A stretch of 64,000 bases of DNA. Source: Pseudomonas grimontii (lineage in GTDB: Bacteria > Pseudomonadota > Gammaproteobacteria > Pseudomonadales > Pseudomonadaceae). The notes under the pieces are model-generated. The model was not told the DNA's origin. It saw nothing but the letters and a program-made list of their open reading frames with translations, and searched no databases. The translations under genes were made by a program, and so were the position numbers. Location: the NCBI RefSeq assembly GCF_007858185.1, contig NZ_VFES01000003.1, forward strand, positions 310,001 to 374,000. Direction: 5' to 3'. Shown piece by piece: positions 2 to 18,255 of this stretch (position 1 is the stretch's first letter; each line of letters begins with the position of its first letter).

Positions 2-184
2 ACGCTTAACCGTTTTCATCTAAGCCCCTTATTGGAGCGATCAGTTCGCAATGGCGAATACGCTGTCGCGGTGAATGCCTTGCGCCGTAGCATGAAACTT
101 GAGTTTTCAATGGCGGTCATCATTATCTGTCTTGTCGCATGGTTAGGTACTTTAAGCCCTGTCATGGAAATGAGCGCAGCATAG
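2..184 (+). CDS. copD: Copper resistance protein CopD/PcoD, C-terminal fragment (cut by window edge)
   Basis: Reading from base 2 gives an open frame of 60 codons ending at TAG 182-184. It contains NALRRSMKLEFSMAVIIIC followed by LVAWLGTLSPVMEM. This matches the last periplasmic loop and final transmembrane helix of CopD/PcoD inner-membrane copper proteins, where an ALRRS..LE stretch leads into a helix ending in a WLGTL-P motif. CopD works with the periplasmic copper carrier CopC in copper handling. The start lies upstream of the window, so the gene may be intact. It lies directly upstream of the cus genes on the same strand, which supports a copper-resistance cluster. The frame has no ATG near the edge, so automated callers may miss it. 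Confidence 0.75.
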   Translation, partial: TLNRFHLSPLLERSVRNGEYAVAVNALRRSMKLEFSMAVIIICLVAWLGTLSPVMEMSAA

Positions 185-258
185 ACGTTGGTAACAGCCA
201 ATACAGGAGTCTTAAGGGTGAATTGTAAGGGCCATTTGCACCGTCTACACTTTAGCCC

Positions 259-600
259 ATGAAACGCTATGTGCGGTGTTGCCTGATTTTCCTAATTAGC
301 TTGGCGCTTCCCCTTAGCGGGATGGCGGGTGTTCAGGCATCGACTGAACCATGCCCGATGAAAACCATGGGTATAGCGATGATGGATGGTATGGGTCAAG
401 ACTGCTGCCACGACATGAAAAGTACCGCTGAGCATGGCAAACCTTGTAAGTCGGGCCAGGAATGCAAAACGGGCGGCATGCTGCAAGTCTCGATCATCAA
501 GCCTCCTATTACCTTGTCCAGTCCAATCGTTCTGCCCTTCTCCAGCCATTTCCCACTCGTACAAACCCCTTCTGGGTTATGGCGACCTCCCCGTACTTGA
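259..600 (+). CDS. Small periplasmic Met/Cys/His-rich metal-binding protein (CzcI/DUF2946-like)
   Basis: This is a 113-residue protein with an N-terminal signal peptide (basic MKR start, hydrophobic stretch, cleavage expected near GMAGVQAS, about residues 20-28). The mature part is rich in Cys, His and Met: PCPMKTMGIAMMDGMG, then DCCHDMK, then GKPCKSGQECKTGG. Small proteins of this kind often precede RND heavy-metal efflux operons in Pseudomonas and are thought to bind or sense periplasmic metal. It lies 93 bp upstream of cusC and 74 bp downstream of copD. The metal-binding role is inferred from composition and context; assignment to CzcI/DUF2946 is tentative. Confidence 0.65.
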   Translation: MKRYVRCCLIFLISLALPLSGMAGVQASTEPCPMKTMGIAMMDGMGQDCCHDMKSTAEHGKPCKSGQECKTGGMLQVSIIKPPITLSSPIVLPFSSHFPLVQTPSGLWRPPRT

Positions 601-699
601 TTCCTGTACCACACTGAGCCTCATTCCGCGTTAGCGGGATGGCATATCTGCGCGCATGTCTTATGAAGCGCGCGGTGGATCATCACAGGAATCGTGAAC

Positions 700-1956
700 A
701 TGAACTCCAACTGCTTTTGCACAGGTTGGTCCCTCGTGGCCGGCCTGGCGGCAAGCGTACTGGCATTGCCGAGCCTTGCTGGTGCATTGACACTCGATGA
801 AGCGCTGCGGCTGGCCGAAAACAATGCACCGTCGTTGACCGCACAAGACGCCAAAATTCAAGCAGCCACCAGTGCGGCCATTCCCGCCGGCGAACTACCC
901 GATCCCAAGCTACTGCTGGGCTTGCAGAACTACCCCATTGGTGGTGCCGACAGATGGAGCATCGACCAGGACTTCATGACCATGCAAGTGGTCGGGATCA
1001 GACAGGAGATGCCCAACAGCGATAAGCGCAAAGCACGTATCGAGGTCGCGGATGCGGCTGTTGATCGAGCGTCCGCTGAGCGTCGAGTGGCGCGTCTGAA
1101 CGTCCGACAGTCCACGGCATTGGCCTGGATCAGTAGCTACTCGGTTGAGCGTAAAGATGCGATGTTCCAGGACTTCTACAAAGAAAACCGTCTTCTGACC
1201 GATACCGTCAGATCTCAGATTGCGGGTGGCCGCGCCCAACCCGCCGATGCGGTGACACCTAAACAGGAAGCTGCCCAACTGGCGGAGCAGCAGGATGATT
1301 TAGTTCGCCAACGTGCACAGGCCCGGGCGGCCCTCAAGCGCTGGATTGGCCCAGCTGCCAATGACAAACCGGCGGGCAGCTTGCCTGATTGGCCCATTGA
1401 AACCTCTGGATACTCCCATAAGCTGCAACATCACCCTGAATTGGCGGCGTATGTGCCGATGACCCGTGAAGCACAAGCCAAGATCCGTGAAGCTGAGGCG
1501 GAAAAGCAATCTGACTGGAGCTGGGAATTCGACTATCAGCATCGAGGCAAACAATTCGGTGACATGGTTAGCGTCCAGTTTTCATGGGATCTCCCGCTGT
1601 TTCCTGACTCTCGGCAAAACCCCAAAATTGCGGCAAAGCACGCCGAACTCAACCAACTTGAAGCTGAGCGGGAAGCTCTGTCGCGCGAGCATACCCAGCA
1701 ACTGGAGGATGAGTTGGCCGACTACGAGCGACTCAATCGTGCAGTCACCCGTAATCAGGAAAGCTTGTTGCCGCTGGCTAAAGAAAAGGTTGAACTCACC
1801 ATGGCTAGCTACCGTTCCGGCAAAGGTGATTTGAACTCGGTTGTGGCCGCCCGACGCGAACTCATCGAAGCCCGTCTCAAGCAGATTGACGTTGAAGAGC
1901 AACGTGCTCTCACCAGCGCTCGCTTGTATTTCTCTTACGGGGAGCCCGCTCAATGA
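700..1956 (+). CDS. cusC: CusC/CzcC-type outer-membrane efflux channel (TolC family)
   Basis: A protein of about 418 residues with a signal peptide ending near SLAGA, followed by LTLDEALRLAENNAP, the usual start of TolC/OEP proteins. Two OEP repeats rich in coiled-coil alpha segments follow (about residues 30-220 and 235-415). It forms the outer-membrane duct of a tripartite RND metal pump. I prefer ATG 700 to GTG 694 because the CACAGGA ribosome-binding site ends nine bases before 700 and only three before 694. Its stop overlaps the next start (ATGA), indicating translational coupling with cusB. CusC and CzcC cannot be told apart from this protein alone; the copper call rests on the CusA partner. 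Confidence 0.85.
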   Translation: MNSNCFCTGWSLVAGLAASVLALPSLAGALTLDEALRLAENNAPSLTAQDAKIQAATSAAIPAGELPDPKLLLGLQNYPIGGADRWSIDQDFMTMQVVGIRQEMPNSDKRKARIEVADAAVDRASAERRVARLNVRQSTALAWISSYSVERKDAMFQDFYKENRLLTDTVRSQIAGGRAQPADAVTPKQEAAQLAEQQDDLVRQRAQARAALKRWIGPAANDKPAGSLPDWPIETSGYSHKLQHHPELAAYVPMTREAQAKIREAEAEKQSDWSWEFDYQHRGKQFGDMVSVQFSWDLPLFPDSRQNPKIAAKHAELNQLEAEREALSREHTQQLEDELADYERLNRAVTRNQESLLPLAKEKVELTMASYRSGKGDLNSVVAARRELIEARLKQIDVEEQRALTSARLYFSYGEPAQ

Positions 1957-3437
1957 ATTTCAAAGTATGGAAAGGGACTTTAGTTGTCGGCATCTCGATT
2001 GCCTTGGGTGTTGCCGGAGGTTACTGGTTAGCCCAACCGCGAATGAGCGAAGTAGCTGGTGTCGAGCCGGATCAGGAAGCCAAAGCCTCTCCCGATCGAA
2101 AGGTTCTGTATTGGTATGACCCCATGTACCCACAACAGAAATTCGATAAACCGGGTAAGTCACCCTTCATGGACATGCAGATGATCCCCCAATACGCAGA
2201 TACCAAGGGGGACAGCGGCGGCATTCGAATTGATCCAAGCCTGACTCAGAACCTTGGTGTGCGACTGGCTAGTGTCAGTCGAGGGGTATTTGCCTCGACA
2301 CTGAACGTGGTAGGTGTTCTGGCCTTCAACGAACGGGACGTTGCAGTCATTCAGGCCCGTACGGCGGGTTTTGTCGAGCGCGTGTACGCCCATGCACCTG
2401 GTGATGTGCTGAAAGTGAATGCAGCCTTGGCAGATATCTTGGTGCCGGATTGGGCAGCTGCTCAAGAGGAATTTCTCGCCCTCAAGCGTAGTGGCGATGC
2501 TGACTTGCTGACAGCGGCCCGCCAGCGATTGAGGCTCACCGGAATGCCAACTAAGTTAATTGCTCAAGTTGAGCGCAGTGGCAAAGTTCAACCGAACCTG
2601 ACTCTGACCAGCCCTATTGGTGGTGTGCTTCAAGAGCTGAGTGTGCGTGAAGGTATGACGGTGGCCGCAGGCGAGACGCTCGCGCGTGTTAATGGTTTGA
2701 GCAGTGTCTGGCTGGCCGTGGCGGTACCAGAGTCGGAGGCTGGGTCAATCGTCGTAGGGCAAGCAGCCGAAGCGCGTTTGTCCGCGCTCCCTGGAGTTGT
2801 GCTCAAGGGCGTCGTCAGTGCGATTCTTCCGGAAACCAGTTCGGACAGTCGCACACTTCGCGTTCGAGTTGAGTTACCCAATCCGGATGGCCGACTCAGG
2901 CCAGGTTTGACCGCGCAGGTAAGTCTCAATCGTTCGACGGAGCAAAGTGTTTTGTGGGTGCCGAGCGAGGCCGTCATTCGTACCGGTCGACGTACGTTGG
3001 TCATGCTCTCTGAAGACGCTGGTCGATATCGCCCGGTGGAGGTGCAGTTAGGCCAAGATAACGATGGCAAAACGCTGATATTGAAAGGCTTGGAAGAGGG
3101 GCAAAAAGTGGTGACTTCTGGCCAGTTCCTTCTCGACTCGGAGGCCAGTCTCAAGGGCGTTGTCGCAAGCTCACTGGACGTTTCGCCATCTACTGTAACC
3201 GCAGGCGCTTTGCATGAGGCCGATGGTCAGATCGTTGAGATCAACGACAAAGAAGTCACGCTCGCCCACGGTCCCTTCAGAACATTGGGTATGTCAGGCA
3301 TGACGATGACTTTCCCTCTCGCCGCTCCAGCTCTGATGAAGGGTCTTAAAACGGGCGACAAGGTTCGGATCGCTGTCAGCCAGACGGAAGATGGTCTGCG
3401 AGTTGAGCGTCTGGAACGCTTTGGGAGCCAGCCATGA
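1953..3437 (+). CDS. cusB: CusB-type membrane fusion protein with fused C-terminal CusF domain
   Basis: The periplasmic adaptor of the RND pump, 494 residues. It has an N-terminal membrane anchor (about 8-27). A heavy-metal-binding domain follows at about 50-80 ([12 protein letters not shown] and [12 protein letters not shown], with the Met/Asp pattern of CusB-type proteins). The HlyD-like beta-barrel, lipoyl and hairpin region spans about 95-400. The last 70 residues (about 425-494) form a CusF-like fold with [16 protein letters not shown], carrying the Met and aromatic residues that bind Cu(I)/Ag(I) in CusF. In E. coli CusF is a separate protein; here it is fused to the adaptor. The gene overlaps cusC by 4 bp and the cusA start by 4 bp. 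Confidence 0.9.
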
Positions 3438-6400
3438 TCGCGGCCCTTATTCGCTGGTCGGTGGCTAACCGCTTTCTTGTGTTGCTGGCGACGCTGTTTG
3501 TCACGGCATGGGGGATCTGGGCGGTTCAAAGTACGCCCATTGACGCATTGCCAGACCTGTCGGATGTTCAGGTAATTATCCGTACACCATATCCAGGCCA
3601 AGCCCCACAGATCGTAGAAAACCAGGTCACCTATCCATTGGCAACCACTATGCTCTCTGTGCCTGGTGCCAAGACTGTGCGCGGTTATTCCTTCTTTGGC
3701 GACAGTTTCGTTTACGTACTATTCGAAGACGGAACTGACTTGTACTGGGCCCGCTCGCGCGTATTGGAATATCTGAGCCAGATACAAAGCCGGCTTCCGG
3801 CCAGTGCCAAGCCCGCATTAGGACCTGATGCCACTGGGGTTGGCTGGATTTTCCAGTACGCCCTGGTAGACCGAAGCGGCGGGCATGACTTGGCGCAGTT
3901 ACGTGCCTTGCAGGACTGGTTCCTCAAATTCGAGCTTAAGACCCTACCGAACGTTGCGGAAGTGGCCACGGTGGGTGGCATGGTAAAGCAGTACCAGGTG
4001 CAGCTTGATCCGGTGAAGTTGGCCAGCTTGGGGATCACGCAGTCTGAAGTGACCGAGGCGATCGGCAAGGCCAATCAGGAAACTGGTGGGGCGGTGCTGG
4101 AGATGGCGGAGACCGAGTTTATTGTGCGGGCTTCCGGGTACTTGAAGACCCTCAATGACTTTCGTGCTATCCCACTCAAACTGGGCACGGGTGGTGTGCC
4201 GGTCACTCTGGGCGATGTTGCCACGATTCAGATGGGGCCTGAGATGCGTCGAGGCATCACCGAACTCGATGGCGAAGGTGAGACCGTCGGCGGCGTGGTA
4301 ATTCTGCGCAGCGGTAAGAATGCTCGAGAAACCATTGCGGCGGTCAAGACCAAACTCGACGAGCTGAAAAGCAGTCTGCCGGCGGGGGTAGAAATCGTCA
4401 CCACCTACGACCGCAGCAAGTTGATTGATCGTGCCGTGGAAAACCTCAGCCACAAGCTGATCGAAGAGTTCATCGTCGTCGCGTTGGTCTGCGGAATCTT
4501 TCTCTGGCACCTGCGTTCATCTCTGGTGGCAATCATCTCCCTGCCGGTTGGGGTGCTGATCGCCTTCATCGTAATGCGCTATCAGGGTATCAACGCCAAC
4601 ATCATGTCCCTTGGCGGGATTGCCATCGCCATCGGCGCCATGGTCGACGCTGCCGTGGTGATGATTGAAAACGCCCACAAGAAGGTCGAGGCTTGGCACG
4701 TGGCTAATCCTGGGGAGGAACTGAAAGGTGAACGTCATTGGCACGTGATGACTGAAGCGGCTGCCGAGGTAGGACCCGCATTGTTCTTCTGTCTGCTGAT
4801 CATCACCCTGTCGTTCATTCCGGTGTTCACGCTGGAGGCTCAGGAAGGACGTCTATTCGGTCCATTGGCGTTCACCAAAACCTACGCTATGGCCGCAGCG
4901 GCTGGACTGTCGGTAACTCTAGTTCCGGTGTTGATGGGGTATTGGATTCGCGGACGAATTCCTAATGAGCAACAGAATCCGCTAAATCGCTGGTTGATCC
5001 GGATCTACGAGCCCGCTCTGGACGCCGTATTACGTCGACCTAAAGTAACGCTGCTGGTTGCATTGCTAGTCTTTGTCAGCGCGTTGTGGCCGATCTCTCG
5101 TCTGGGTGGTGAGTTTCTTCCCCCGTTGGACGAAGGGGACCTGCTCTATATGCCGTCAGCTCTGCCTGGATTATCGGCGCAGAAGGCCGCGCAACTGCTT
5201 CAGCAGACTGACCGTCTAATAAAGACAGTTCCAGAGGTCGAACACGTTTTCGGAAAAGCCGGCCGCGCTGAAACCGCGACTGACCCGGCACCGTTGGAAA
5301 TGTTCGAGACCACCATTCAATTCAAACCACGCGAGCAGTGGCGCCCAGGCATGACCCAGGAAAAGCTCGTTGAGGAGCTAGAACAAGTGGTGCGTGTCCC
5401 AGGATTAACCAACATCTGGATACCGCCTATTCGTAACCGTATCGACATGCTGGCCACCGGCATAAAAAGCCCGATTGGCGTGAAGGTTGCCGGTACCAAC
5501 CTGACGGAGATCGATGCCGTCACCCAAGCCATCGAGCGTGTTGCCAAGGACGTCTCAGGTGTCAGTTCAGCGTTAGCCGAACGACTGACCGGTGGCCGCT
5601 ATATTGATGTAGATATCGATCGCAAAGCTGCGGCACGCTATGGGTTAAATATTGCCGATGTGCAATCAATCGTGGCCGGCGCAATCGGCGGTGAAAACGT
5701 CGGGGAGACGATTGAAGGGTTGGCTCGTTTCCCAATTAACGTACGTTACCCTCGTGAGTGGCGGGATTCGCTCGGCGCTTTGGAGCAGTTGCCGATCTAC
5801 ACCCCGCTAGGCAGCCAGATCACCCTTGGCACCGTGGCGAAGATCAAGGTCAACGACGGGCCGCCAATGCTCAAGAGTGAGAACGCACGGCCTTCAGGCT
5901 GGGTGTACATCGATGTGCGTGGCCGGGACATTGCCTCCGTAGTCGCCGATCTACGCCGGGTCGTCAGTGAGCAGGTCAAGTTGCAGCCCGGCATGAGCCT
6001 GAGCTACTCAGGTCAGTTCGAGTTTCTCGAAAGGGCCAACGCACGACTCAAACTGGTGGTGCCTGCCACGCTGTTGATCATCTTCGTGTTGCTCTACCTG
6101 ACATTTGCACGCCTTGATGAGGCTTTGCTGATTATGGCCACGCTGCCATTCGCTCTCACGGGCGGGGCATGGTTTCTCTATCTGTTGGGATTCAACCTGT
6201 CGGTTGCCACCGGGGTCGGCTTTATCGCCTTGGCCGGTGTTTCTGCCGAATTTGGCGTGATCATGCTGCTCTACCTGAAAAATGCATGGACCGAGCGTCA
6301 AGACCTCGGTGACAACACAGAACGCGGGTTGATGGCCGCGATTTGTGAAGGCGCTGTCCAGCGCGTTCGACCTAAGGCTATGACCGTGGCAGTGGTTATC

Positions 6401-6577
6401 GCTGGTTTGTTACCTATACTTTTGGGAGGCGGTTCCGGTAGCGAGGTTATGAGCCGCATTGCCGCCCCGATGATTGGCGGTATGGTTACGGCACCCTTGC
6501 TATCGCTGTTTGTGATCCCGGCGGCCTATCACCTCATGCGTCGTCGACACTTGTCCGTTGAGCCTGGCAAGCACTGA
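3434..6577 (+). CDS. cusA: CusA copper/silver RND efflux pump (HME family)
   Basis: The inner-membrane proton-driven transporter, 1047 residues, the same length as E. coli CusA. It has the RND layout of twelve membrane helices with two large periplasmic loops. The three Met residues that bind Cu(I)/Ag(I) in E. coli CusA are at the same residue numbers: M573 (codon 5150, in [10 protein letters not shown]), M623 (codon 5300, in [10 protein letters not shown]) and M672 (codon 5447, in [13 protein letters not shown]). This supports copper/silver rather than zinc/cobalt/cadmium specificity. It is last in the cusCBA operon, with a 4-bp overlap with cusB. A small hairpin follows the stop codon. Confidence 0.95.
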
Positions 6578-6600
6578 CGCGTAAAAACGCATACGAAAGG

Positions 6601-6622
6601 GGCTGCGCTTGCAGCCTCGTTT
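6601..6622 (+). terminator. Possible weak terminator after cusA
   Basis: GGCTGC-GCTT-GCAGCC is a perfect 6-bp stem with a four-base loop, 23 bp after the cusA stop, followed by TCGTTT. The T-run is short, so termination may be partial. The rest of the 6,578-6,868 gap shows no convincing gene. Confidence 0.4.
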
Positions 6623-6868
6623 GAGCTGCACAGCTCGTTTTCATCAGTCTTACATGCGCTGTGGTCAGTGCCATTACCCACCAGCACTTGCCAGAAAACG
6701 AACGCCGCCACCACCGCCTTTCGATGAGCCAAAAAAGCATCCTGCTAAAAGGCGACTCAGCATTCGTCACCCTCAGATCTCTCTTGAAATCGGGACGAAT
6801 GACCCTAATATGATCTTATCTTGCCATCATCGTTTTCAATCATGGATGTTTTTCGGGGGTCGGTCGAA

Positions 6869-8035
6869 ATGGCAGAAAAAGAAGACGCTAAGCCCGCGAG
6901 CGGGCGCTTTAACACGAATGATGAGACGAAGCGGATCGTATGGACACAGACCGCTGGTCATTGTGAACTGTGCGGTACGGATCTAACGTTCGACTATCGT
7001 GCCGGCAAGCCAATGAAATGGGGCGAAGTGGCGCATATCTTACCCGCCAGTCCCAAGGGGCCTCGGGGACGCGCGGATCATGATGCTGAGGCGCACACTA
7101 ACGATACTGCTAACCTGATGCTCCTGTGCCCAGGCTGTCATGACAAAATTGATCGTGACGCAGATGGCTACCCTGAAAATGATCTGAGCGGTTTGCACCA
7201 AGCGTACCTTGAACGCATCCGACTCGCCGCAACGACCCCCGATGGTGGCAGAGCCATTCCTCTCATCGTCCAGAGTCAGCACTTTCAGACGATCAACGAT
7301 ATCCCCGTTCGCGATCTGTTGGCTGCGATGTCCGCCGAGGGATTAACCGCCTTCGATCAAGGCATCAAAATCGCCTTCGCTGCGCCCGGACCACGTGGCA
7401 GGGACACTACCTATTGGCAGAACGTCAAAGACAGCGTCCAGTATGAGCTGGAGCAGCAACTCAAACGTCGCGGCGGCACTTATGGCGATTCGCCCGCGCT
7501 AGCAGTAGTCGGCTTGGCCGACATTCCGGCCTTGATGATGTTGGGCCAGAGTATCGGCGACCGTTCCAAACGCTTGATCTTCTCTTTTCATCGCGAGCAT
7601 CTTTTGCGCTGGCCCGATCAGTCTGCTGAGCCGCCTAGTTTTCTGTTTACGCCTCCACCCAACGGCGATGGCCCACTGGCGTTGGTGCTCTCCATTTCTG
7701 CGCAAGTTCCAGTACGCGACGTGACCGACGCTCTACCCGGTGCACGTATTGCAGAGCTGTCGATCCCAGAACCAAGCTACGCGATGGTACAGAACCGTCG
7801 GGTGATTCATGCTTTTCGCGACGCACTTCAAATACGACTGAGCCAGCTTGAGGCTCTGACTCCTGACCCCATCCACGTCTTCGCCGCCATTCCTGCGGCA
7901 TTGGCCATCGAGTTTGGCGCGTTGCTCACAACACAGCATCAACATACATACCTGATCTTCGATCGGGACAAAGAAAACCAAGATCGGTTTACGCAAACAC
8001 TGCAATTGGGTCCCGTGGCCCAGGAGGCTATGTAA
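6869..8035 (+). CDS. cap5: Cap5: HNH-SAVED effector nuclease of type II CBASS
   Basis: The CBASS effector, about 388 residues. The N-terminal HNH domain has two CxxC pairs (C32/C35 in HCELCGTD, C87/C90 in LCPGCH), likely zinc ligands, and catalytic-type residues H56 (EVAHILPAS), N82 (TANLMLLC) and H91. The C-terminal part (about 140-385) fits a SAVED domain, which binds the cyclic nucleotide and triggers multimerisation and DNA cleavage. Known HNH-SAVED Cap5 proteins paired with CdnG respond to 3',2'-cGAMP and degrade DNA, killing the infected cell. I chose ATG 6869, preceded by GGGGGT at about nine bases; ATG 6842 and TTG 6821 are in-frame alternatives. The stop overlaps the cdnG start (TAATG). 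Confidence 0.9.
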   Translation: MAEKEDAKPASGRFNTNDETKRIVWTQTAGHCELCGTDLTFDYRAGKPMKWGEVAHILPASPKGPRGRADHDAEAHTNDTANLMLLCPGCHDKIDRDADGYPENDLSGLHQAYLERIRLAATTPDGGRAIPLIVQSQHFQTINDIPVRDLLAAMSAEGLTAFDQGIKIAFAAPGPRGRDTTYWQNVKDSVQYELEQQLKRRGGTYGDSPALAVVGLADIPALMMLGQSIGDRSKRLIFSFHREHLLRWPDQSAEPPSFLFTPPPNGDGPLALVLSISAQVPVRDVTDALPGARIAELSIPEPSYAMVQNRRVIHAFRDALQIRLSQLEALTPDPIHVFAAIPAALAIEFGALLTTQHQHTYLIFDRDKENQDRFTQTLQLGPVAQEAM

Positions 8036-9285
8036 TGCTTTTGAGCAACGAACAGACCAAGCGCAGCAGTTGGGAATATTTTCTGCTTCGCGCCGCGAGG
8101 GAGATCTCGCTGTCGGAAGCGCAGTACGAAAAAATCAATGACCGCTACTCCCAACTGGAAAAAATCCTCTCGGCTTCCGACAATCCGTTGCTCGCTGAGG
8201 CTCATATTTTCGTTCAGGGCTCAATGCGGCTGAAAACGACCATTAAGCCAATTCCCGGGGCGCCTGCGGATCTGGACACCATTGATGCGGACGCGATTAT
8301 CTGGCTCCCTCACGCTCAAGGCGCTGGTGCGAAGGAAGTTCTAGAGGCGATTGAGCAGCGTTTTAGGGAAGGCTCCCGCGTTCAGGAAGAAGTTAAGCAA
8401 CTACGTCGTGGTATTCGAATCGTTTATGCAGACGAAAATCCAGGTTTCCACATCGATGTCACACCTGCCCGGGCGATCAACGGAAATGGCGAAGCAAACG
8501 GCGAGGGTAAGCTTGAGGTTCCGGATCGAGTCACAGGATGGAAAGCGAGCAGCCCTATTCCTTACTCGAATTGGTTGCAGGTCGCTTCCGCCCAGGAAAT
8601 CTCTCTGGAAAGCTTAGTGGTTGCCAAAAGCCAGCGGATGCTTGATGCCGCGACCCAAGATCCTTTGCCGCATTATCAGGATTACATCGATCAAGATCCC
8701 CTGCGTGCGACCATTAAGCTGCTCAAGCGGCATCGCGATGAATGGGCCATCAAGACAAGGAGCGCTGATACTCGCCCAATATCTGCGGTCATCACCACTC
8801 TAGCCACGCACGCATACCTGGATGTCGTAAAGGAGTCGCAGTCGAAGCCTCTGGCACCGCTCGATGCAATTTTGGAAATCGTTCGCAGAATGCCGCAGCA
8901 CATCGCGCATAGAGGTAGCGACTGCTATGTCTGCAACCCTGCCGATAACGGCGAAAACTTTGCAGAGAAGTGGAATCGACCGGGCGAGGGGCAAGGCTAC
9001 CGTCAGGCATTCGCCAAGTGGCATGCGGACGCCAGTGCATCTGTGTCATTAGGTTTGGAAAGTTTTGAATCCAATGACTCCTTTGCCGAGGCAGTGAAAA
9101 AGAACTTCGGTATTGCGCCGGCGTTCATCACGGCAGTGAACAATGAAATCCCTGCGAATTGGACGATGCCCGGTCGACCGGATGGCACTACTCGAAACTC
9201 TGCTTCGATGGGTTCGCTCTTCGGAGGGGCCAGCGGTGGCGGAACCTCTCAGTCGAGCGTAAAGCCAGTTGGACGCCTTGGCTGA
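8035..9285 (+). CDS. cdnG: CD-NTase (CdnG-like cyclic oligonucleotide synthase) of CBASS
   Basis: The sensor and second-messenger synthase of CBASS, 416 residues. The nucleotidyltransferase core shows GS at 62-63 (FVQGSMRLKTT), the metal-binding pair D84/D86 in DTIDADAIIWL, and the third acidic residue D141 in FHIDVTPAR, so the active site looks intact. The HNH-SAVED partner suggests clade G, whose studied members make 3',2'-cGAMP; clade and product are inferred. The last about 25 residues are a flexible Gly/Ser-rich tail ending in PVGRLG. In type II CBASS, Cap2 conjugates the CD-NTase C-terminus to targets, which primes its activity. Start and stop overlap neighbouring genes, so the four genes form one coupled operon. 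Confidence 0.92.
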   Translation: MLLSNEQTKRSSWEYFLLRAAREISLSEAQYEKINDRYSQLEKILSASDNPLLAEAHIFVQGSMRLKTTIKPIPGAPADLDTIDADAIIWLPHAQGAGAKEVLEAIEQRFREGSRVQEEVKQLRRGIRIVYADENPGFHIDVTPARAINGNGEANGEGKLEVPDRVTGWKASSPIPYSNWLQVASAQEISLESLVVAKSQRMLDAATQDPLPHYQDYIDQDPLRATIKLLKRHRDEWAIKTRSADTRPISAVITTLATHAYLDVVKESQSKPLAPLDAILEIVRRMPQHIAHRGSDCYVCNPADNGENFAEKWNRPGEGQGYRQAFAKWHADASASVSLGLESFESNDSFAEAVKKNFGIAPAFITAVNNEIPANWTMPGRPDGTTRNSASMGSLFGGASGGGTSQSSVKPVGRLG

Positions 9286-11053
9286 TCCTATTAAGACACC
9301 ATTGCAGCGCGGAATCGCCGCACTGCGTAACACCCTAGGTCAGGATGCTGCCGATGCATTGCTCCAGCCCGCACCCATGCGGGCTGACGAAGCGGCGTGC
9401 TTTCACTTCCCCTTGCCCACCGATTACACGGGGCAGGAGCGGCGACTGCGTATAGGTTTCCCCTCCAACTTTCCCCGCGGGCTCTTGCGGCTGAACGTCG
9501 AACCCTCTCCATGGCTGGTTTGGCCGCATGCCACTAAGTCGGGGCTTTGCCTTCATGGCTTTCAGGAACGCCCCATCATGGGCTCCCCGGAGGTCGTGGT
9601 AGAGGACAGCCTTGCTCGCTTGGCCCAGATCGTTTCGTTGTCCAAGATGGGATCAAACCAGGCAACACGCGATATCGAATTTCAGAATGAGATCACTACC
9701 TACTGGTCGTTTCAGCACGGGCAGTCATTCCAGAACCTCTTACTGTTGGATCGACCTCAGGCTGCCTCGCAGTTGTTTGCGCTCAGCGATCCGCGCCGAG
9801 CTGTGCCATCCGGTCAGGAAACGGTTTGGTTAGCATCGAATGTAGCTGCACTCAAAGGGCATTACCGACGGGTCGTCGGGCGCTCTGCTGTCATTCGTGC
9901 GGCCGAAACTCCCGGTTTTTACGTCAAGCTTCAGACTTATCCGGATATCCGCACCCCGGATCCAGAAGATTTATTGCTGTGGCTAAAGCCACACCTTCAA
10001 CCAGACGATGCCGAGCAATTGCTGGCATGGTTTGAGCTGCATGGAACGTTGGCGAGTCGATGGATTGTTCTGGAGCTTCCAGGAGGCGCAGATGCTCCAA
10101 CATATTGTCTCAATGTGCGTTCGCTCGGTGTACAGCAGGAGCGGGGGGCAAAGTTTGGCTTGCGTACAGCTCGCCGGCGGCCAGCTATCGCAAATGCTCA
10201 TCCTCCGGCGCTCGTCCGAGCAACTGCCCTGGATGTGCTTGATCGAGCGTCTATCCTGTCCCGCGATATAAGCGGCACTGCACAGCACCTTGAAAATGCT
10301 CGAGTCGTTTGTGTTGGCGTTGGCTCATTAGGCAGTACGGTGGCAATACAATTGGCACGATCCGGTGTCGGCCACCTTACCCTCATCGATCCTGACACTT
10401 TGGTGTCAGCCAATCTGGGGAGGCACGTTCTGGGAGCGGATAGCCTAGGGAGGCTGAAAGCCTCAGCGTTGAGGGACAAGATTCTGTTAGATCTTCCGAC
10501 GACAGAATGCACCGCTTATTCGACTTTTGCCGAAGTAGTGATGAGTAGCAAACCAGAAGTGTTCGATAACGCAGATCTGGTGGTGATCACGACAGCAGAC
10601 TGGCAGTCGGAGGTCACTGTATGGCGAACCAAATCCAGCGGCGCTCCTTGGGGGCTTTTACAAGCCTGGAGCGAACCGTATACCCAGGTCGGCCATGCTC
10701 TATTCGCACCAGGCGGCACCTTTGATGGCCGTCAGTTGTTCACGGACGTCGGCGATTTTTTGCATAGATTTACAGAGTGGCCGGGAGGCGGTGTTGTTCC
10801 ACTGCCCGCGTGTGGCGAGAGCTTTATCCCAGGCGGCTCGCTGGGAATGACCAATATCGCCTCTATGGTGTCGCACACGGCCTTACGCGCATTGACCGGC
10901 AAGATCGCCACTGCATCTTGGGTCAGCAGCATTTATAGGCCTGAAGATGTGCTGAGCCTAGGAGGCCAATACCATGGGCCCAAACTGCCAGAGGGGACGC
11001 AGCAAATCCTACTCGAACGCGGATGGCCGGAAGATAAGGACGAAATGGTATGA
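9269..11053 (+). CDS. cap2: Cap2: E2-E1 fusion that primes the CD-NTase
   Basis: A ubiquitin-transfer-like enzyme of 594 residues from a TTG start. An E2-like domain occupies about 35-130, with the likely catalytic Cys C94 in SGLCLHGF. A linker/inactive region follows. The ThiF-type E1 domain (about 340-560) has the nucleotide loop GVGSLGS at 350-356, Asp374 in TLIDPDT, and the E1 catalytic Cys C515 in PLPACGESF. In characterised systems Cap2 adenylates the C-terminus of the CD-NTase and joins it to a target, raising signal output. The start is uncertain: TTG 9269 and TTG 9278 both lie inside the 3' end of cdnG, and the first ATG would remove much of the N-terminus. It overlaps cap3 by 4 bp (ATGA). 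Confidence 0.92.
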   Translation: MDALADPIKTPLQRGIAALRNTLGQDAADALLQPAPMRADEAACFHFPLPTDYTGQERRLRIGFPSNFPRGLLRLNVEPSPWLVWPHATKSGLCLHGFQERPIMGSPEVVVEDSLARLAQIVSLSKMGSNQATRDIEFQNEITTYWSFQHGQSFQNLLLLDRPQAASQLFALSDPRRAVPSGQETVWLASNVAALKGHYRRVVGRSAVIRAAETPGFYVKLQTYPDIRTPDPEDLLLWLKPHLQPDDAEQLLAWFELHGTLASRWIVLELPGGADAPTYCLNVRSLGVQQERGAKFGLRTARRRPAIANAHPPALVRATALDVLDRASILSRDISGTAQHLENARVVCVGVGSLGSTVAIQLARSGVGHLTLIDPDTLVSANLGRHVLGADSLGRLKASALRDKILLDLPTTECTAYSTFAEVVMSSKPEVFDNADLVVITTADWQSEVTVWRTKSSGAPWGLLQAWSEPYTQVGHALFAPGGTFDGRQLFTDVGDFLHRFTEWPGGGVVPLPACGESFIPGGSLGMTNIASMVSHTALRALTGKIATASWVSSIYRPEDVLSLGGQYHGPKLPEGTQQILLERGWPEDKDEMV

Positions 11054-11532
11054 CGGATATCGCATGGCGCTGGCGATGGCCGGAGGTGGACTCCGAGCTA
11101 TTGGTGTCCCAGGCGGTCGCGGACATCTTGGATAGTCATCGGCAGGGCCTTTTTGGCGTGGAGCGAGGTGGACAGTTATTCGTCAACCCTGTTGATCCGA
11201 AAGGTTTGCTGCTGGCCTTGGCCACGTTGCCTCATCGCGCCGATCGGTCAGGCTGGTCTTGGCTAGAGTTGGATGCGGCGCGGTGCCGTCAGGAGATCCA
11301 GGCTGCCAACGAACAAGGGTTACGCCTGGTGGGCTATTGGCATACGCATCCCCAATCCGTTCCGGTGATCTCTCCGGCAGACATCGGTAGTTTCTCCAAA
11401 TTTGCTGCACGTTACACGCAGGATCTGCCGCACCCAATAGCCATTATTGTCGGCAAGTCCGAAAAACCAGAAGGTATCAAGGCGTGGTCGTTCAGGGACG
11501 GCAGATATGTTGAGGCAACCTGGGTCAGATGA
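11050..11532 (+). CDS. cap3: Cap3: JAB/JAMM deconjugating peptidase of CBASS
   Basis: A 160-residue protein of the JAB1/MPN metalloprotease family. The full JAMM signature is visible: E38 (GVERGGQLF) and H98-x-H100-P101 with S108 and D111 (WHTHPQSVPVISPADIG), so zinc and catalytic residues are present. In type II CBASS, Cap3 cleaves the CD-NTase-target bond made by Cap2 and so restrains activation. It is last in the operon; its ATG overlaps the cap2 stop. It ends 28 bp before the convergent exonuclease gene. No clear terminator is visible between the two. Confidence 0.92.
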   Translation: MTDIAWRWRWPEVDSELLVSQAVADILDSHRQGLFGVERGGQLFVNPVDPKGLLLALATLPHRADRSGWSWLELDAARCRQEIQAANEQGLRLVGYWHTHPQSVPVISPADIGSFSKFAARYTQDLPHPIAIIVGKSEKPEGIKAWSFRDGRYVEATWVR

Positions 11533-11560
11533 ACTTCAAGTCAGTGCGGTGGAAGGCAGG

Positions 11561-12109
11561 TCAGCGTTTATAGTTACCCGCTAGCATTAGGGCGAAGAGC
11601 TCTGCCTGAAAGCGGGCATCATCCAATGCGTTATGGTTCGGTTCGCTGAGTGGCTTCAGCGCAGCGGTCATTTTGGATGATTTTGTTTCCTTCCAGCTGC
11701 AACCTACAGCGCCCATAAAGTAGGCCTTCATGTCGATAGCGGTAAAACCAAAGGGGTTGGTTTCCAGGTATTTGTGGAAGTAGTAATTGACGAATGACCA
11801 GTCAAACGGTGCATTGAGTCCTACGAAAATGACCTTTTGCCCCGTTTGGCAGGACGATCTCAGCCACTGATCAAATGTCAGCATCGCCTGTTGCGGAGCG
11901 AGACCCTCGCGCTCCAGCTTCTCCAGACTCAGCCCCGATACTGCCAGCGCTTCGGGGTCGTGTTTCGGACTGTCAGGCCGTAGTTCAAGATATATGGACG
12001 TTTCAGGTTGGGCTACAAGACAAGCTCCAATGGAAAGCAGACTGTAATCGCCTGGTATAGGCCCAGAAGTCTCGACGTCGACGGAAACATAAAGCTCATT
12101 AGGGTGCAT
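11561..12109 (-). CDS. DEDDh-family 3'-5' exonuclease (DnaQ/RNase T fold)
   Basis: A 182-residue exonuclease-fold protein. The DEDDh residues can be read: Asp and Glu in SVDVETSG (near the N-terminus), Asp in LNAPFDWSF, and His plus Asp in PNHNALDDARFQAELF near the C-terminus. Such enzymes remove nucleotides from DNA or RNA 3' ends with two metal ions; the substrate cannot be told from sequence. The start ATG has AAAGGAT about seven bases upstream. It is convergent with cap3 and divergent from the downstream antitoxin-like gene. It may be an independent cargo gene or a defence accessory; no published link to CBASS is claimed. Confidence 0.8.
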   Translation of the reverse strand: MHPNELYVSVDVETSGPIPGDYSLLSIGACLVAQPETSIYLELRPDSPKHDPEALAVSGLSLEKLEREGLAPQQAMLTFDQWLRSSCQTGQKVIFVGLNAPFDWSFVNYYFHKYLETNPFGFTAIDMKAYFMGAVGCSWKETKSSKMTAALKPLSEPNHNALDDARFQAELFALMLAGNYKR

Positions 12110-12336
12110 GTCATATCCTTTCGTGTAGTTAACTGATCACGCTCAGGCTCTTAGCCATGTGAAGGTGGAAAGGCAGGTATATCCATTGCCCCATTTTTTG
12201 CTGTTTCACTCGCTATCCGGCGTTCGAGCAGCGGCAGTGCCTGTCTACCAGCGGATTGCGCGTTCCTTTGGTCAGCTCTGGGCCCAACCATGATGATGTG
12301 TGTCATTCTCTGATGGCGGATGAGGGCCGGACGATC

Positions 12337-12975
12337 ATGAGTGAAACTGAGCGTTGGATAGTAAAATCCCAGAAAACTGAGGACGGAACTGGCGACATCA
12401 TCATTGATCTGCCTCAAGAGTTGCTTGACCAAATGAGGTTAGGTGTTGGGGACGACTTGGAGCTAACGGTATTGAATGGCACATTAGTCCTGACGCCCGT
12501 CCGCAACGCAACATCAGTGCGGCCCATGTTTGCTGGCGTCCTGCGTCAGGATGCCAGTCATGCTTACCGCATGCGTCTGGAGACGCTTCTTCATATTTCT
12601 GTCAATGCTTCGGATCTGGACATTCACGACATGATAGTAGCTGGCTTCTCGGCCAGCCTGATCAAAATGCTTTGTGATGATGGAACCCTCAGCGACGAAG
12701 AACGCGACAGAATCATTCAACCCAAAACGCTCAAAACAAAACTGTCAGCCAATCAGCTTTTAACGTCGCATGAGAGCGATCGCCTGTTCCGTTTTGCACA
12801 TATTACCGCTATGGCCGAGGTGGTCTTCGGTGACAAAGGGAAGGCCAAACATTGGCTTTCCAAACCCAAAGCCCGTTTTTTAGGAGAAAGCCCATTGGCG
12901 ATGGTCACTACAACCTTTGGCACACATCTAGTCGAAGAAATGCTGATTCAAGTGTCTGAGGGCATGTCATTTTGA
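12337..12975 (+). CDS. AbrB/MazE-like N-domain fused to Xre/MbcA/ParS-type (DUF2384) antitoxin domain
   Basis: About 212 residues from ATG 12337; ATG 12313 and 12256 are in-frame alternatives. Residues about 15-55 resemble a swapped-hairpin AbrB/MazE DNA-binding domain (IIIDLPQELLDQMRLGVGDD, then LELTVLNGTLVLTP). The C-terminal 60 residues resemble the DUF2384 toxin-binding domain of Xre/ParS antitoxins (ITAMAEVVFGDKGKAKHWL, then ESPLAMVTTTFGTHLVEEML). Such proteins normally neutralise and repress a RES-domain toxin encoded immediately downstream. Here the next 370 bp contains no RES gene, so it may be an orphan or may act on an unusual partner. Base composition is lower in GC than the core genes. 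Confidence 0.7.
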   Translation: MSETERWIVKSQKTEDGTGDIIIDLPQELLDQMRLGVGDDLELTVLNGTLVLTPVRNATSVRPMFAGVLRQDASHAYRMRLETLLHISVNASDLDIHDMIVAGFSASLIKMLCDDGTLSDEERDRIIQPKTLKTKLSANQLLTSHESDRLFRFAHITAMAEVVFGDKGKAKHWLSKPKARFLGESPLAMVTTTFGTHLVEEMLIQVSEGMSF

Positions 12976-13344
12976 TTCAGTCGCAGCCAAACGGACTCTA
13001 CCGCTCCTTGAGTAACATGGATTTCATGCACCAATACCGGCGTCGCATAGCCGAATACGGCATGCACGGGCATCCATGAAGCACTAGGTTTCACCCGCAT
13101 CGGCACCTACCGCTAGGTAGGGTTCACGCACGGCAATGGTATAGCTGTGTACTGGCGCAAACCACTTTATCCGGTGACAACTCGATAGAAATCATCCCGT
13201 TCAGTGAGATGAAGGGAGAAGACGGAACAGCCATGAGATCACCCTGCTGCTATCCGTCGGCATCGGAACCTGGTGATCCGCTGGGAGCTAAGCTGAATGA
13301 TGCTTCTCGTTCGAATCGGTTTTTTGGATCGGCAGGAGGTACAA
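12976..13344. other. Gene-less stretch within the island, probably decayed DNA
   Basis: About 370 bp with no frame that looks like an intact gene. A short plus-strand frame directly after the antitoxin stop contains PNGLYRSLSN but ends within 35 codons. A minus-strand frame of about 40 codons (containing FGYATPVLVHEIHV) is also open. Neither has a convincing ribosome-binding site. A frame near 13,250-13,280 reads RRHRNLVIRWEL, faintly like the end of an IS5-type transposase. The place where a RES toxin would be expected is therefore empty or degraded. Confidence 0.5.
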
Positions 13345-13737
13345 ATGAATTTGGCAGATTATGTTTCAGTGCTTTCTGCAGGCGAGAAAATAGACGGATG
13401 CCAACTCGCCCCCTCAGATGCAGTGGCTTTCGCCAGTCTGCATTTTCCTTCCCGTGCCTATTGTCTTGTTGCTGATTGGGCAATATTGGATCTCGACATT
13501 ACAACACGTCAGCGAAAAGCCATTACGGATAGACAGCTAATTCCTGCTCTCGTTTACGCTTTGACCGTTATCCAAGACAGTAAAGGCCGCTTCCCGCCTG
13601 GTGATTGGGTCCGATCAACGCTGGGTGTTTCCTTCACCAATGACTGCTTATTTCGAACAAAAAACACAGTGTATGTGCTGATGGGGACCGGTCGAAGGTT
13701 GCGCACGGATTTAGACATCGCACTGAGCCTGTGTTGA
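13345..13737 (+). CDS. Small protein resembling DUF6957 family
   Basis: A 130-residue protein starting at ATG 13345, preceded by a strong AGGAGGT site four bases upstream; this start is better than the upstream ATG 13297. Recognisable stretches are GWDPS-like regions replaced here by LAPSDAVAFASLHFPS, then CLVADWAILDLDITTRQ, GDWVRSTLGVSFTNDC and NTVYVLMGTGRR. They resemble small Pseudomonas proteins that I recall as DUF6957, whose function is unknown. No signal peptide or membrane segment is seen. It is the last gene before the island end. It could be a partner of the upstream antitoxin-like protein, but nothing in the sequence proves this. Confidence 0.6.
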   Translation: MNLADYVSVLSAGEKIDGCQLAPSDAVAFASLHFPSRAYCLVADWAILDLDITTRQRKAITDRQLIPALVYALTVIQDSKGRFPPGDWVRSTLGVSFTNDCLFRTKNTVYVLMGTGRRLRTDLDIALSLC

Positions 13738-13814
13738 AAAAAGACTATTTCCGCACAGGTGATTGACCGGTCGCGCTCACATGGTGTTTCGGCATAAATG
13801 ATTGCTCTCGCTGT

Positions 13815-13963
13815 TGTGTCAAACTATGTTGTTACCAATCGAGCCCCGTATTTGAAGTGCGACCCGTCTGTGTCAGTCTATGTTGCTGTTGTGTGGCCCC
13901 CGGATCATCCTACAGGCCCCGATTTACGAGAGGGGCTGTGTCAAACTATGTTGTTGGTAACCA
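13815..13963. mobile_element. Transposon end with three TnsB-site-like repeats
   Basis: Three copies of a roughly 22-bp repeat occur in one orientation: 13815-13838 and 13937-13962 share TGTGTCAAACTATGTTGTT exactly, and 13869-13890 reads TGTGTCAGTCTATGTTGCTG. On the opposite strand the core CAACATAGTTTGACAC resembles Tn7 TnsB sites (ACAAAATAGTTNGGAACT). Start-to-start spacings are 54 and 68 bp. The outermost copy ends 24-25 bp beyond the glmS stop. The exact terminus is uncertain; TGGTTACC (reverse strand) at 13956-13963 is a candidate tip, and a usual TGT tip is not obvious. Confidence 0.75.
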
Positions 13964-14024
13964 GTGGGCCTCCAGCGTGAAGCGGATTACTCCACCGTCA
14001 CCGACTTCGCCAGGTTGCGCGGCT
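13964..14024 (-). other. attTn7 target region (glmS 3' end and flank)
   Basis: TnsD of Tn7 recognises the last codons of glmS and directs insertion about 25 bp past the stop. The glmS stop is at 13987-13989 (reverse strand) and the repeat-bearing element end lies about 24 bp further on, which fits a used attTn7 site. The 5-bp target duplication cannot be verified because the other island end is not in the window. Confidence 0.7.
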
Positions 14025-15819
14025 GGTCAACGTCGGTGCCTTTGAGCACGGCGACGTAGTACGACAGCAGCTGCAGCGGGATGGTGTAGAGGATCGGCGA
14101 CAGGGTGTCGTGGATGTGCGGCATGTTGATGACGTGGGTGCCTTCGCCGTTGGTCATGCCGGCTTTTTCGTCGGCGAACACGATCAGTTGGCCGCCACGG
14201 GCGCGGACTTCCTGCAGGTTGGACTTGAGCTTCTCCAGCAGTTCGTTGTTCGGCGCTACGGTGACCACCGGCATGTCGTCGTCCACCAAGGCCAACGGGC
14301 CGTGTTTGAGCTCACCGGCCGGGTAGGCTTCGGCGTGGATGTACGAAATTTCCTTGAGCTTCAGCGAGCCTTCCATCGCCACCGGGTACTGCGCGCCACG
14401 GCCGAGGAACAGGGTGTGGTTCTTGTCGGCGAACAGCTCGGCAACTTTTTCCACGGTGCTGTCCATGGCCAAGGCTTCGCCCAGGCGGGTCGGCAGGCGG
14501 CGCAGTTCTTCCACCAGGGTGGCTTCGACGCCGGCAGCCAACGTGCCGCGAACCTGGCCCAGGGACAGGGTCAGCAGCAGCAGGCCAACCAACTGGGTGG
14601 TGAACGCTTTGGTGGACGCTACGCCGATTTCGCGACCGGCCTGGGTCAGCAGGGTCAGGTCGGACTCACGCACCAGGGAGCTGATGCTGACGTTGCAGAT
14701 CGCCAGGCTGGCAAGGAAGCCCAGCTCTTTGGCGTTGCGCAGCGCGGCCAGGGTGTCGGCGGTTTCGCCGGACTGGGAAATGGTCACGAACAGGGTGTCG
14801 GGCTGCACCACCACCTTGCGGTAGCGGAACTCACTGGCGACTTCGACCTGGCACGGGATGCCGGCCAGTTCTTCCAGCCAGTAACGAGCAACCATACCGG
14901 CGTGGTAGCTGGTGCCACAGGCCACGATCTGCACATTGCGCACTTTGGCGAACAGCTCGGCGGCCTGGGGGCCGAAGGCGTTGACCAGCACTTGCTTGTC
15001 GCCAAGGCGGCCTTCCAGGGTGCGCTGCACCACGGCCGGTTGCTCGTGGATTTCCTTGAGCATGAAGTGGCGGAACTCGCCTTTGTCGGCGGCCTCAGCA
15101 CCGTCGCGGTATTGCACGGCTTCGCGTTCGACGGAATTGCCGTTCACATCCCAGATCGCCACGCTTTCACGGCGAATGTCGGCAATATCGCCTTCTTCCA
15201 GGTACATGAAGCGATCAGTGACCTGGCGCAGGGCCAGTTGGTCGGAGGCGAGGAAGTTCTCGCCCAGGCCCAGGCCGATTACCAGCGGGCTGCCACTGCG
15301 GGCGGCAACTACGCGGTCCGGTTGGCTGGCGCTGACCACGGCCAGACCGTAGGCGCCGTGCAGTTCCTTGACCGTGGCCTTGAGGGCGTTGGTCAGGTCG
15401 CCGTGGTCCTTGAGCTTGTGGTTGAGCAGGTGGGCGATGACTTCGGTGTCGGTGTCCGAAGTGAATACGTAGCCCATGCTCTTGAGCTGTTCGCGCAGCA
15501 CTTCGTGGTTTTCGATGATGCCGTTGTGCACCACCGCCAAGTCACCGGAGAAGTGCGGGTGGGCGTTACGCTCGCACGGTGCGCCGTGGGTAGCCCAGCG
15601 GGTGTGGGCAATACCCAGGCGACCTACCAGCGGCTCGCCGGCCAACGCCTGCTCCAACTCGCTGACCTTACCTGGGCGACGCATGCGCTCAAGCTTGCCG
15701 GCGTTGGTGAAGACGGCCACACCCGCGCTGTCGTAGCCGCGGTATTCCAGGCGCTTGAGGCCTTCGAGCAGGATGGCAGTAACGTTACGTTCGGCGACTG
15801 CGCCAACAATTCCACACAT
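13987..15819 (-). CDS. glmS: Glutamine-fructose-6-phosphate aminotransferase (isomerising)
   Basis: A 610-residue enzyme making glucosamine-6-phosphate from fructose-6-phosphate and glutamine, the first step to UDP-GlcNAc for peptidoglycan and LPS. After Met removal the N-terminal Cys of MCGIVGAV is the glutaminase nucleophile. Residues 2-220 are the class II amidotransferase domain and about 285-600 contain two SIS sugar-isomerase domains ([17 protein letters not shown]). It ends in LAKSVTVE, typical of Pseudomonas. It follows its DeoR-type regulator by 10 bp; the regulator stop is inside the TAGGAGA ribosome-binding site, so the pair is coupled. The 3' end is the Tn7 target and the Tn7-like island begins just beyond it. 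Confidence 0.99.
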
Positions 15820-15829
15820 GGTGCTTCTC

Positions 15830-16597
15830 CTAGATGATTGCCGCGCATATCAGCGTAATGCCGCGGGCTTGGATCTGGTCGCGGGCCTCAAGCGGCAGGC
15901 GATCATCGGTAATCAGGGTATGGACGCTGCTCCAGGGCAGTTCCAGGTTGGGAATCTTGCGGCCGATCTTGTCGGATTCGACCATCACCACCACTTCACG
16001 GGCGACCTCGGCCATCACACGGCTCAGGCCCAGCAATTCGTTGAACGTGGTGGTGCCACGTTGCAGATCGATGCCGTCGGCGCCGATGAACAGTTGATCA
16101 AAGTCGTAGGAACGCAACACCTGCTCGGCGACCTGGCCCTGGAACGAGTCCGAATGCGGGTCCCAGGTACCGCCGGTCATCAACAGCACCGGCTCGTGTT
16201 CCAGTTCGCTCAAGGCGCTGGCCACGTGCAGGGAATTGGTCATGACGACCAGGCCGGGCTGGTGGCCCAGTTCCGGGATCATGGCAGCGGTGGTGCTGCC
16301 ACTGTCGATGATGATGCGGGCGTGTTCACGCAAACGTGTCACGGCAGCACGGGCGATCGCACGCTTGTAGGCAGAGACCGGTTGGGCGGGGTCGCCCACC
16401 AGTTCCTGAGGCATGGTGATCGCGCCCCCGTAGCGGCGCAGCAACAGGCCGTTACTTTCGAGGGCGGCCAAGTCCTTGCGGATAGTGACTTCCGAGGTTT
16501 CGAAACGCTTGGCCAATTCGTCCACGCTCACTTCGCCCTGTTCGTTGAGCAAGGTGAGGATGTTGTGGCGTCGTTGGGGTGTATTTCGTTTCGACAT
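15830..16597 (-). CDS. glmR: DeoR-family transcriptional regulator upstream of glmS (GlmR)
   Basis: A DeoR-type repressor of about 255 residues. The start chosen is [14 protein letters not shown] (16597), 13 codons inside the longest frame, the usual family start. The N-terminal winged helix-turn-helix reads [20 protein letters not shown]. The DeoR C-terminal sensor domain (about 75-235) has [14 protein letters not shown] and [12 protein letters not shown], typical of sugar-phosphate-binding members. In P. aeruginosa the equivalent gene next to glmS is called glmR. It probably adjusts glmS or amino-sugar genes to sugar-phosphate level; target and effector are inferred from position. Confidence 0.9.
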
Positions 16598-16700
16598 GGT
16601 GATGATAAGTTTCGTTTCGAAAGATAACGAAGGCAATCAAAACCTATTGGTGAAAGATCGTCAAGCGGCGGGCTGCATTTTTTTGATAACGACGCAGAGC

Positions 16701-16796
16701 AAATGTGGGAGGGGGCTTGCCCCCGATAGCAGTGTGTCAGTCGGTACATAAGCTGACTGATCTACCGCCATCGGGGGCAAGCCCCCTCCCACATTG
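16701..16796. repeat. REPIN (paired REP palindromes) between glmR and glmU
   Basis: Two inverted REP units: AAATGTGGGAGGGGGCTTGC at 16701-16720 and its near-perfect reverse complement at 16776-16795, enclosing a variable spacer with the GTCAG..CTGAC pair. This is the REPIN form that is widespread in P. fluorescens-group genomes and mobilised in trans by a RAYT transposase. Confidence 0.92.
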
Positions 16797-16827
16797 GAGT
16801 TATGTCGCCTGAGAGATTGTGGATAAC

Positions 16828-18195: not shown

Positions 18196-18255
18196 GAATG
18201 GCTACCAATCCTGGACGGTCCGGCTTCAGACCAAAGATGTGTTTTGCTAAATAAA

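Follow-up and report, generated by a model that had tools for sequence, protein, structure and literature searches.

A type II CdnG-Cap5 CBASS with a convergent Cap18-like exonuclease gene on a Tn7-like element beside glmS in Pseudomonas grimontii

The closest described relatives of the locus reported here are cyclic oligonucleotide-based antiphage signalling systems (CBASS) in which CdnG, a clade G nucleotidyltransferase, is paired with Cap5, an HNH-SAVED effector. The product of VcCdnG is 3',2'-cyclic GMP-AMP (3',2'-cGAMP), which drives VcCap5 to tetramers (PMC12804361), and the same molecule activates PsCap5, which severely limits the growth of E. coli once this ligand is added (PMC13253105). 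CBASS are also among the cargo of Tn7-like transposons, with a table entry of 216 for the nucleotidyltransferase (Benler et al. 2021, PMC8649781). The system considered here is in the draft genome sequence of Pseudomonas grimontii (G000, 57 contigs), within a window of 64,000 bp, the whole stretch of DNA analysed, which is positions 310001-374000 of contig C33. The genes cap5-cdnG-cap2-cap3, all four intact on the + strand at 6869-11532 (Table 1), together with a fifth gene for an exonuclease, very probably make up a functional type II CdnG-Cap5 CBASS, carried as a cassette in the cargo of a Tn7-like transposon and acting by the mechanism outlined below.

By its sequence, the CBASS at 6869-11532 is an already known and characterised system. 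Cap5 is identical at 387 of 388 residues to PDB 8fm1, the one difference being near residue 150, with T there and A here; in PDB 9dif the chain is identical to that of 8fm1 except for a replaced H56. We take 8fm1 to be the PsCap5 of P. syringae, from the matching residue numbering. The PsCap5 ligand residues H138, R242, S277, Y304, and R366 have the same numbers in the Cap5 here (PMC13253105). CdnG matches PDB SmCdnG 8hsb (3e-53) and Cap2 matches PDB Cap2 7tsq over 337-419. The CdnG-Cap5 system of Vibrio cholerae is alike in its HNH-SAVED effector, clade G cyclase, 3',2'-cGAMP, and tetramer, and there are no mentions of Cap2, Cap3, or an exonuclease in the text of that paper (PMC12804361). The PsCap5 studies used Cap5 or Cap5 with CdnG, and the word "exonuclease" is likewise absent from the text of that paper (PMC13253105).

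The original prediction was of a complete type II operon with overlapping genes and all catalytic residues retained, and each part of this was found to hold. The overlaps are 1 nt for cap5/cdnG, 17 nt for cdnG/cap2, and 4 nt for cap2/cap3, and therefore every junction of the four genes is overlapping. The seven proteins encoded at 6869-13734 were scanned against PADLOC, Pfam, and NCBIfam. In PADLOC the four operon proteins have matches close to full length: Cap5 to SAVED_HNH (2e-242, residues 1-386 of 388), CdnG to a cyclase (2.8e-241, 1-416 of 416), Cap2 to an E1-E2 model (1.1e-276, 8-591 of 594) and to another E1-E2 model (E=0, 104-594), and Cap3 to JAB (3.9e-93, 1-160 of 160). The original prediction had made its reading of Cap5 depend on a SAVED match in such a family search, and Cap5 matches Pfam SAVED at 8.2e-26; this and HNH_2 (1.3e-7) are both over the cut-off, as is the NCBIfam SAVED domain. 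The remaining Pfam matches in the operon are SMODS (1.4e-13), ThiF (3.3e-17, Cap2), and Prok-JAB (8.2e-8, Cap3). Given the family matches in all three collections, the possibility that these are chance open reading frames (ORFs) was rejected. The cap5 ORF has an in-frame TTG further upstream, at 6821 in the ORF list. In the plasmid record L137 (Pseudomonas sp. 4810-S13) the annotation has these four genes as well, and places the start of cap2 at the matching base.

In Cap5 the HNH residues H56, N82, and H91 are in place, as are C32, C35, C87, and C90; CdnG has G62 S63, D84, D86, and D141; Cap3 has the JAMM residues E38, H98, H100, and D111; and Cap2 has C94 and C515, assigned from the sequence as the catalytic E2 and E1 cysteines. 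The final glycine of CdnG, in ...PVGRLG, is the feature expected for conjugation, and the RLG tail is present in 27/27 relatives read (of 29 named cassettes, L138 and L155 being left out). No match to CapW, CapH, or CapP was found among the seven scanned proteins, and a CBASS transcription factor (CapW, CapH/CapP) at the locus was rejected for this reason.

Cap2 and Cap3 function in conjugation and in its reversal. On infection by a phage, CdnG would make 3',2'-cGAMP once Cap2 had primed it, the C-terminal glycine of CdnG being attached to a target; Cap3 would reset this. The SAVED domain of Cap5 would bind the 3',2'-cGAMP, Cap5 dimers would become tetramers, and the HNH domains would degrade DNA, with the cell dying before phage release. 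The ligand, the tetramer, and the cutting of DNA would apply here by analogy with the Cap5 and CdnG papers, the anti-phage activity is a prediction, and the CBASS presumably operates in this host.

The original prediction was correct for the four genes and did not include the fifth, which lies on the other strand, convergent with cap3. The encoded protein matches the PADLOC CBASS 'Effector, Exonuclease' at 5.9e-90 and Pfam RNase_T over the cut-off, and its predicted DEDDh set is DVE at 11-13, DW at 103 (D103), and HNALDD at 159-164 (H159, D164). It is of the same exonuclease family as the Cap18 of E. coli upec-117, matching PDB 7t2s (1.4e-56) ungapped over 172 residues, with D164 on D165. D165 is the site of the dead mutant D165N of that Cap18 (PMC9122588), which fits 7t2s being that protein. 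The upec-117 CBASS has CdnC with HORMA, TRIP13, and CapW (PMC9122588), whereas here the exonuclease gene converges on an operon of the Cap2/Cap3 type.

The genus search covered 398 genomes, 35 of them with a Cap5 match and 21 with Cap5 at 83% identity or more. Exonuclease matches at 73% identity or more were found at 20 loci in 19 genomes, and these are 20 cassettes with cap5, cdnG, cap2, and cap3, the exonuclease gene being convergent with cap3 in 20/20; in G332 the cassette is complete in the sense of gene content, since cap3 matches in two frames. A second collection, of 32 contig loci, has the four CBASS genes in 25 and the exonuclease gene in the same place in 25/25, although the counts from the two collections overlap because several strains are evidently common to both (e.g. 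P. gessardii and G142). There are 37 plasmid records with Cap5 at 60% identity or more, and in the four opened, with Cap5 at 66% or more, the exonuclease is present in 4/4. A second clade, L048-L052, has about 71% DNA identity to window positions ~6870-12099; elsewhere in positions 1-20000 it gives no blastn match that reaches 80 bases. The identity ends with the exonuclease gene and the flanks are not shared, which argues that this gene belongs to the cassette unit.

The exonuclease is probably an accessory component of the cassette, one that most likely trims nucleic acid and is not the killing effector. It would be transcribed separately, from the other strand, and any role in the response is presumed. 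That it is on that strand, outside the operon, could instead mean that it is an unrelated bystander whose end lies beside cap3 by coincidence, as could the lack of effect of dead Cap18 in one other CBASS, that of E. coli upec-117, where protection was unchanged (PMC9122588), and the presence of relatives at 51-61% identity in 9/398 genomes, counted irrespective of their neighbours. This is improbable, given the same convergent placement in every full cassette of the three samples (20/20, 25/25, and 4/4), including the more divergent ones (about 71% DNA identity, flanks not shared) and that of Klebsiella, given that PADLOC files the family as a CBASS protein, and given that in Acinetobacter pittii an annotated 3'-5' exonuclease sits inside an operon of SAVED, nucleotidyltransferase, ThiF, and Mov34 genes, on the same strand. 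The tail-to-tail layout is kept with a gap of 28 bp here and 13 bp on the Klebsiella plasmid, and with a 4 bp overlap on a P. aeruginosa plasmid. This might suggest that the response has a threshold set by the exonuclease, e.g. if it took away nucleic acid acting as the trigger of CdnG or released by Cap5, with the abutting or overlapping 3' ends coupling the levels of cap3 and the exonuclease. Such a role is unlikely, though less so than a bystander, the mutant data considered being those from the other CBASS, without effect (PMC9122588).

Purifying selection acts on all five cassette genes. Compared with L138, a plasmid of P. syringae pv. actinidiae, the ratios of nonsynonymous to synonymous substitution (dN/dS) are 0.065 for cap5, 0.021 for cdnG, 0.100 for cap2, 0.104 for cap3, and 0.203 for the exonuclease; compared with L152 they are 0.076, 0.021, 0.088, 0.098, and 0.170, respectively. 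Synonymous sites are saturated, or almost so, in comparison with L161 and L162. The profile matches, the residues, the 27/27 RLG tails, and dN/dS of 0.02-0.20 against two relatives support what the original prediction had proposed, a working system rather than a relic. An inactive operon, kept only since the transposon is kept for copper resistance, would account for the existence of broken copies (the Cap5 fragment in G040 and 7/32 loci that are not intact) and for the failure of PsCap5 with CdnG to protect E. coli (PMC13253105), but it is very improbable, with all of the catalytic residues in place, strong purifying selection on five genes, and PsCap5, if it is 8fm1 with its one different residue, an active nuclease in assays (PMC13253105). 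The relic was rejected on the selection and the catalytic residues.

There are several observations that count against a functional five-gene system. PsCap5 with CdnG, when cloned, gave no protection of E. coli against 69 coliphages, in a section that names Cap5 and CdnG without mention of Cap2 or Cap3, and no phage is known so far as a target of a Cap5 CBASS, according to the same paper (PMC13253105). The NCBIfam models for the CBASS cGAMP synthase and for Cap3 are matched only far below their cut-offs, the Cap3 equivalog scoring 20.1 bits where 200 bits are required. Scans for σ70 promoters and terminators gave numbers similar to those in shuffled sequence (4 promoters where 3.0 are expected, 8 terminators where 5.1 are expected), with no signal for an operon promoter beyond chance, and therefore no promoter is claimed. 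Six divergent plasmid records were opened, with Cap5 identity of 23-30%; in one of the six, that of A. pittii, the CBASS genes include an annotated exonuclease, on the same strand, and the other five have no annotated exonuclease, ThiF, or Mov34 nearby, in a PLSDB gene table that is incomplete. In G358 (L039) Cap5 is intact but cdnG is cut off after codon 58, next to an insertion sequence, an IS21-type IstB gene (7.2e-98) following the cdnG stub, with the remaining cassette absent from the stretch. The cdnG match in G301 (L038/L145, Pseudomonas sp. CBZ-4) also ends at codon 58, with Cap5 intact and the contig ending there. The cap3 match in G332 falls in two frames.

The fragment of Cap5 in G040, residues 1-134 with a stop, is alongside an intact copy. 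The seven loci of 32 that are not intact are made up of five where Cap5 is reduced to its first 39-134 residues, one with a deletion between Cap5 and Cap3, and one where cdnG ends at codon 58. In L166 (P. frederiksbergensis SI8) residues 1-156 of Cap5 are joined to residues 13-158 of Cap3, the internal deletion having taken out SAVED, cdnG, and cap2, and the exonuclease is retained. L167, L168, L170, and L171 are recurrent relics with the HNH half of Cap5 only (residues 1-119 or 1-134), the extent of the fragment being identical in L167 and L168, which also have an RND-pump (resistance-nodulation-division) neighbour in common.

The carrier of the cassette is a Tn7-like element of 50,191 bp, at C33:273773-323963. 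The original prediction of a glmS-linked island was confirmed in the form of the right end of this element, at 13963; the distance from the element to the glmS stop codon is 23 bp in G000 and 23-25 bp in nine relatives. Three matches to the right-end repeat were reached by 0/100 shuffles, and related repeats start at C33:273773, at the left end. Homology stops at 13963 in 7/22 other stretches and at 13966-13967 in three more, and the DNA beyond the right end differs between genomes. In all ten elements with both ends read (G000, G032, G142, two copies in G320, G004, G382, G005, G338, and G138, the ends in G142 and G004 being on two contigs) there is a perfect 5 bp duplication. The matching duplications at the two ends in G000 argue for a single insertion site. 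Base 6651 was considered as a general boundary of the CBASS module and rejected, since in most relatives with copper genes homology resumes about 60 bases on.

Genes for TnsA, TnsB, and TnsC and two TniQ/TnsD genes lie 35-43 kb to the left of cap5. The ORFs of L056 include one that is TnsA-like (1.6e-20), one with Mu-transpos_C (2.2e-8), one with AAA_22 and TniB, and two with proteins over the TnsD and TniQ cut-offs; these last are two different TniQ/TnsD genes after tnsC, at L056:8532-10217 and 10468-12207. TnsB at 71% identity or more is present in 13/21 genomes with Cap5 at 83% or more, and G320 has two copies of the element, one with an interrupted tnsB. In G130 and G331 the motif gave no left end at the TnsB loci. 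In G030 there is a similar end beside glmS, but this genome is outside the 35 with a Cap5 match, which would suggest that the CBASS is optional cargo.

Against this account, G067 has the right end and the cassette, yet only a distant TnsB (29%). The tns end of the element adjoins glmS in nine of ten glmS insertions (G032, G142, G320, G004, G382, G005, G338, G040, and G250), while in G000 it is the CBASS end that does so. Tn7 inserts in a fixed orientation, and the arrangement in G000 is for this reason a rare insertion in reverse or else a flip in the assembly. The GTGGG duplication in G000 is intact, and both ends are on one contig. No match to glmS was found within the 12 loci checked for pbpC, the left-flank gene, being normally beside it. 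The tail of glmS was not found within ~400 bases beyond the tns end of the element in G138 or of the second copy in G320; with two TniQ/TnsD genes present, a second target route is possible.

Table 1. Features of the CBASS cassette, the right end of its carrier, and neighbouring genes, in window positions unless a contig is given
Feature	Position	Strand	Description
cap5	6869..8035	+	HNH-SAVED endonuclease effector, 388 aa, ATG
cdnG	8035..9285	+	CD-NTase cyclase, 416 aa, ATG, C-terminus VKPVGRLG
cap2	9269..11053	+	E1-E2 ligase-like protein, 594 aa, TTG start
cap3	11050..11532	+	JAB/JAMM isopeptidase, 160 aa, ATG
cap18-like gene	11561..12109	-	DEDDh 3'-5' exonuclease, 182 aa; converges on cap3 at a distance of 28 bp
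Right end of element	13815..13963		Three 19-nt repeat copies (13815, 13869, 13937), terminus ...GGTAACCA at 13963
Target-site duplication GTGGG	13964..13968		Same 5 bases at G000:C33:273768-273772, before the left end, outside the window
glmS	13987..15819	-	Insertion target neighbour; stop codon 23 bp from element end
Metal-efflux cargo	694..6577	+	Outer-membrane efflux protein, RND adaptor, RND pump
Antitoxin-type fusion	12346..12975	+	MazE-like N-terminus, Xre/MbcA/ParS antitoxin-type C-terminus (Pfam, NCBIfam)
DUF6957 protein	13297..13737	+	Pfam 4.7e-36; last recognised gene before the right end

Besides the RND pump, the cargo of the element has genes for CopB and CopC, for a multicopper oxidase and a cation-efflux protein, and for a sensor kinase of the CusS type and its regulator. 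In the metal-efflux trio 5' of cap5, Pfam OEP (2e-33) and ACR_tran (3.2e-234) were matched in a scan that covered the efflux protein and the pump, and a homologous trio is annotated beside copC/copD in L137 and L138. The copper genes extend to the left of the window, L054 holding CopB, CopC, the multicopper oxidase, and the CusS-type sensor. The gene for a heavy-metal P-type ATPase at L054:12477-14835 (-) falls into two frames that overlap, which points to a frameshift, and at L054:11721-12134 there is a lone flagellar rod-type gene (Flg_bb_rod 1.1e-8) amid the copper cargo. To the right of the exonuclease gene, the antitoxin-type fusion is over the cut-off for Pfam Xre_MbcA_ParS_C (7.7e-10) and for TIGR02293, just below it for MazE_antitoxin, and below it for Xre_ParS_antitoxin. 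No toxin partner was recognised among the neighbouring proteins scanned. The fusion protein is present with the close clade only, having no match beside cassettes with Cap5 at 67-84%, and it could regulate the divergent exonuclease gene.

The mechanism given above is favoured because of what was seen at this locus and in its relatives: the five family matches, the ligand residues of a Cap5 that has been solved, the RLG tails, dN/dS, the exonuclease counts, and the complete tns set with the perfect duplication. The gene content, the residues, their conservation, the purifying selection, and the ends of the transposon are direct observations. Beyond the original prediction, the analysis adds the fifth gene, the precise extent of the transposon and how widely it occurs, and its reversed orientation at glmS. 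Neither the arrangement of Cap5 with the exonuclease nor this transposon is apparent in the titles or abstract openings of the literature searched. A large chromosomal Tn7-like transposon with copper genes in P. syringae pv. syringae is reportedly the subject of Aprile et al. 2021, as related in papers citing that work; the element here is likewise large, chromosomal, and Tn7-like with copper genes. The available text on Tn7-like cargo does not name a combination of CdnG-Cap5 and copper genes (Benler et al. 2021, PMC8649781).

It is possible, though on balance doubtful, that five genes make up the CdnG-Cap5 CBASS, with the tail-to-tail Cap18 exonuclease as an obligatory member that tunes the response, and that exposure to copper selects for phage defence across Pseudomonas by way of an active transposon. 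Copper would do so because the cassette rides on an active Tn7-like transposon for copper resistance.

The locus is a natural, complete, and near-identical copy of a structurally solved CBASS. This suggests that as many as three conserved neighbours (Cap2, Cap3, and the exonuclease) may be missing from laboratory reconstructions described as Cap5 with CdnG, and with the full cassette it can be tested directly which phage is stopped by a Cap5 CBASS. The transposon joins phage defence and the handling of copper on one mobile element, which is found in many Pseudomonas genomes, twice in G320.

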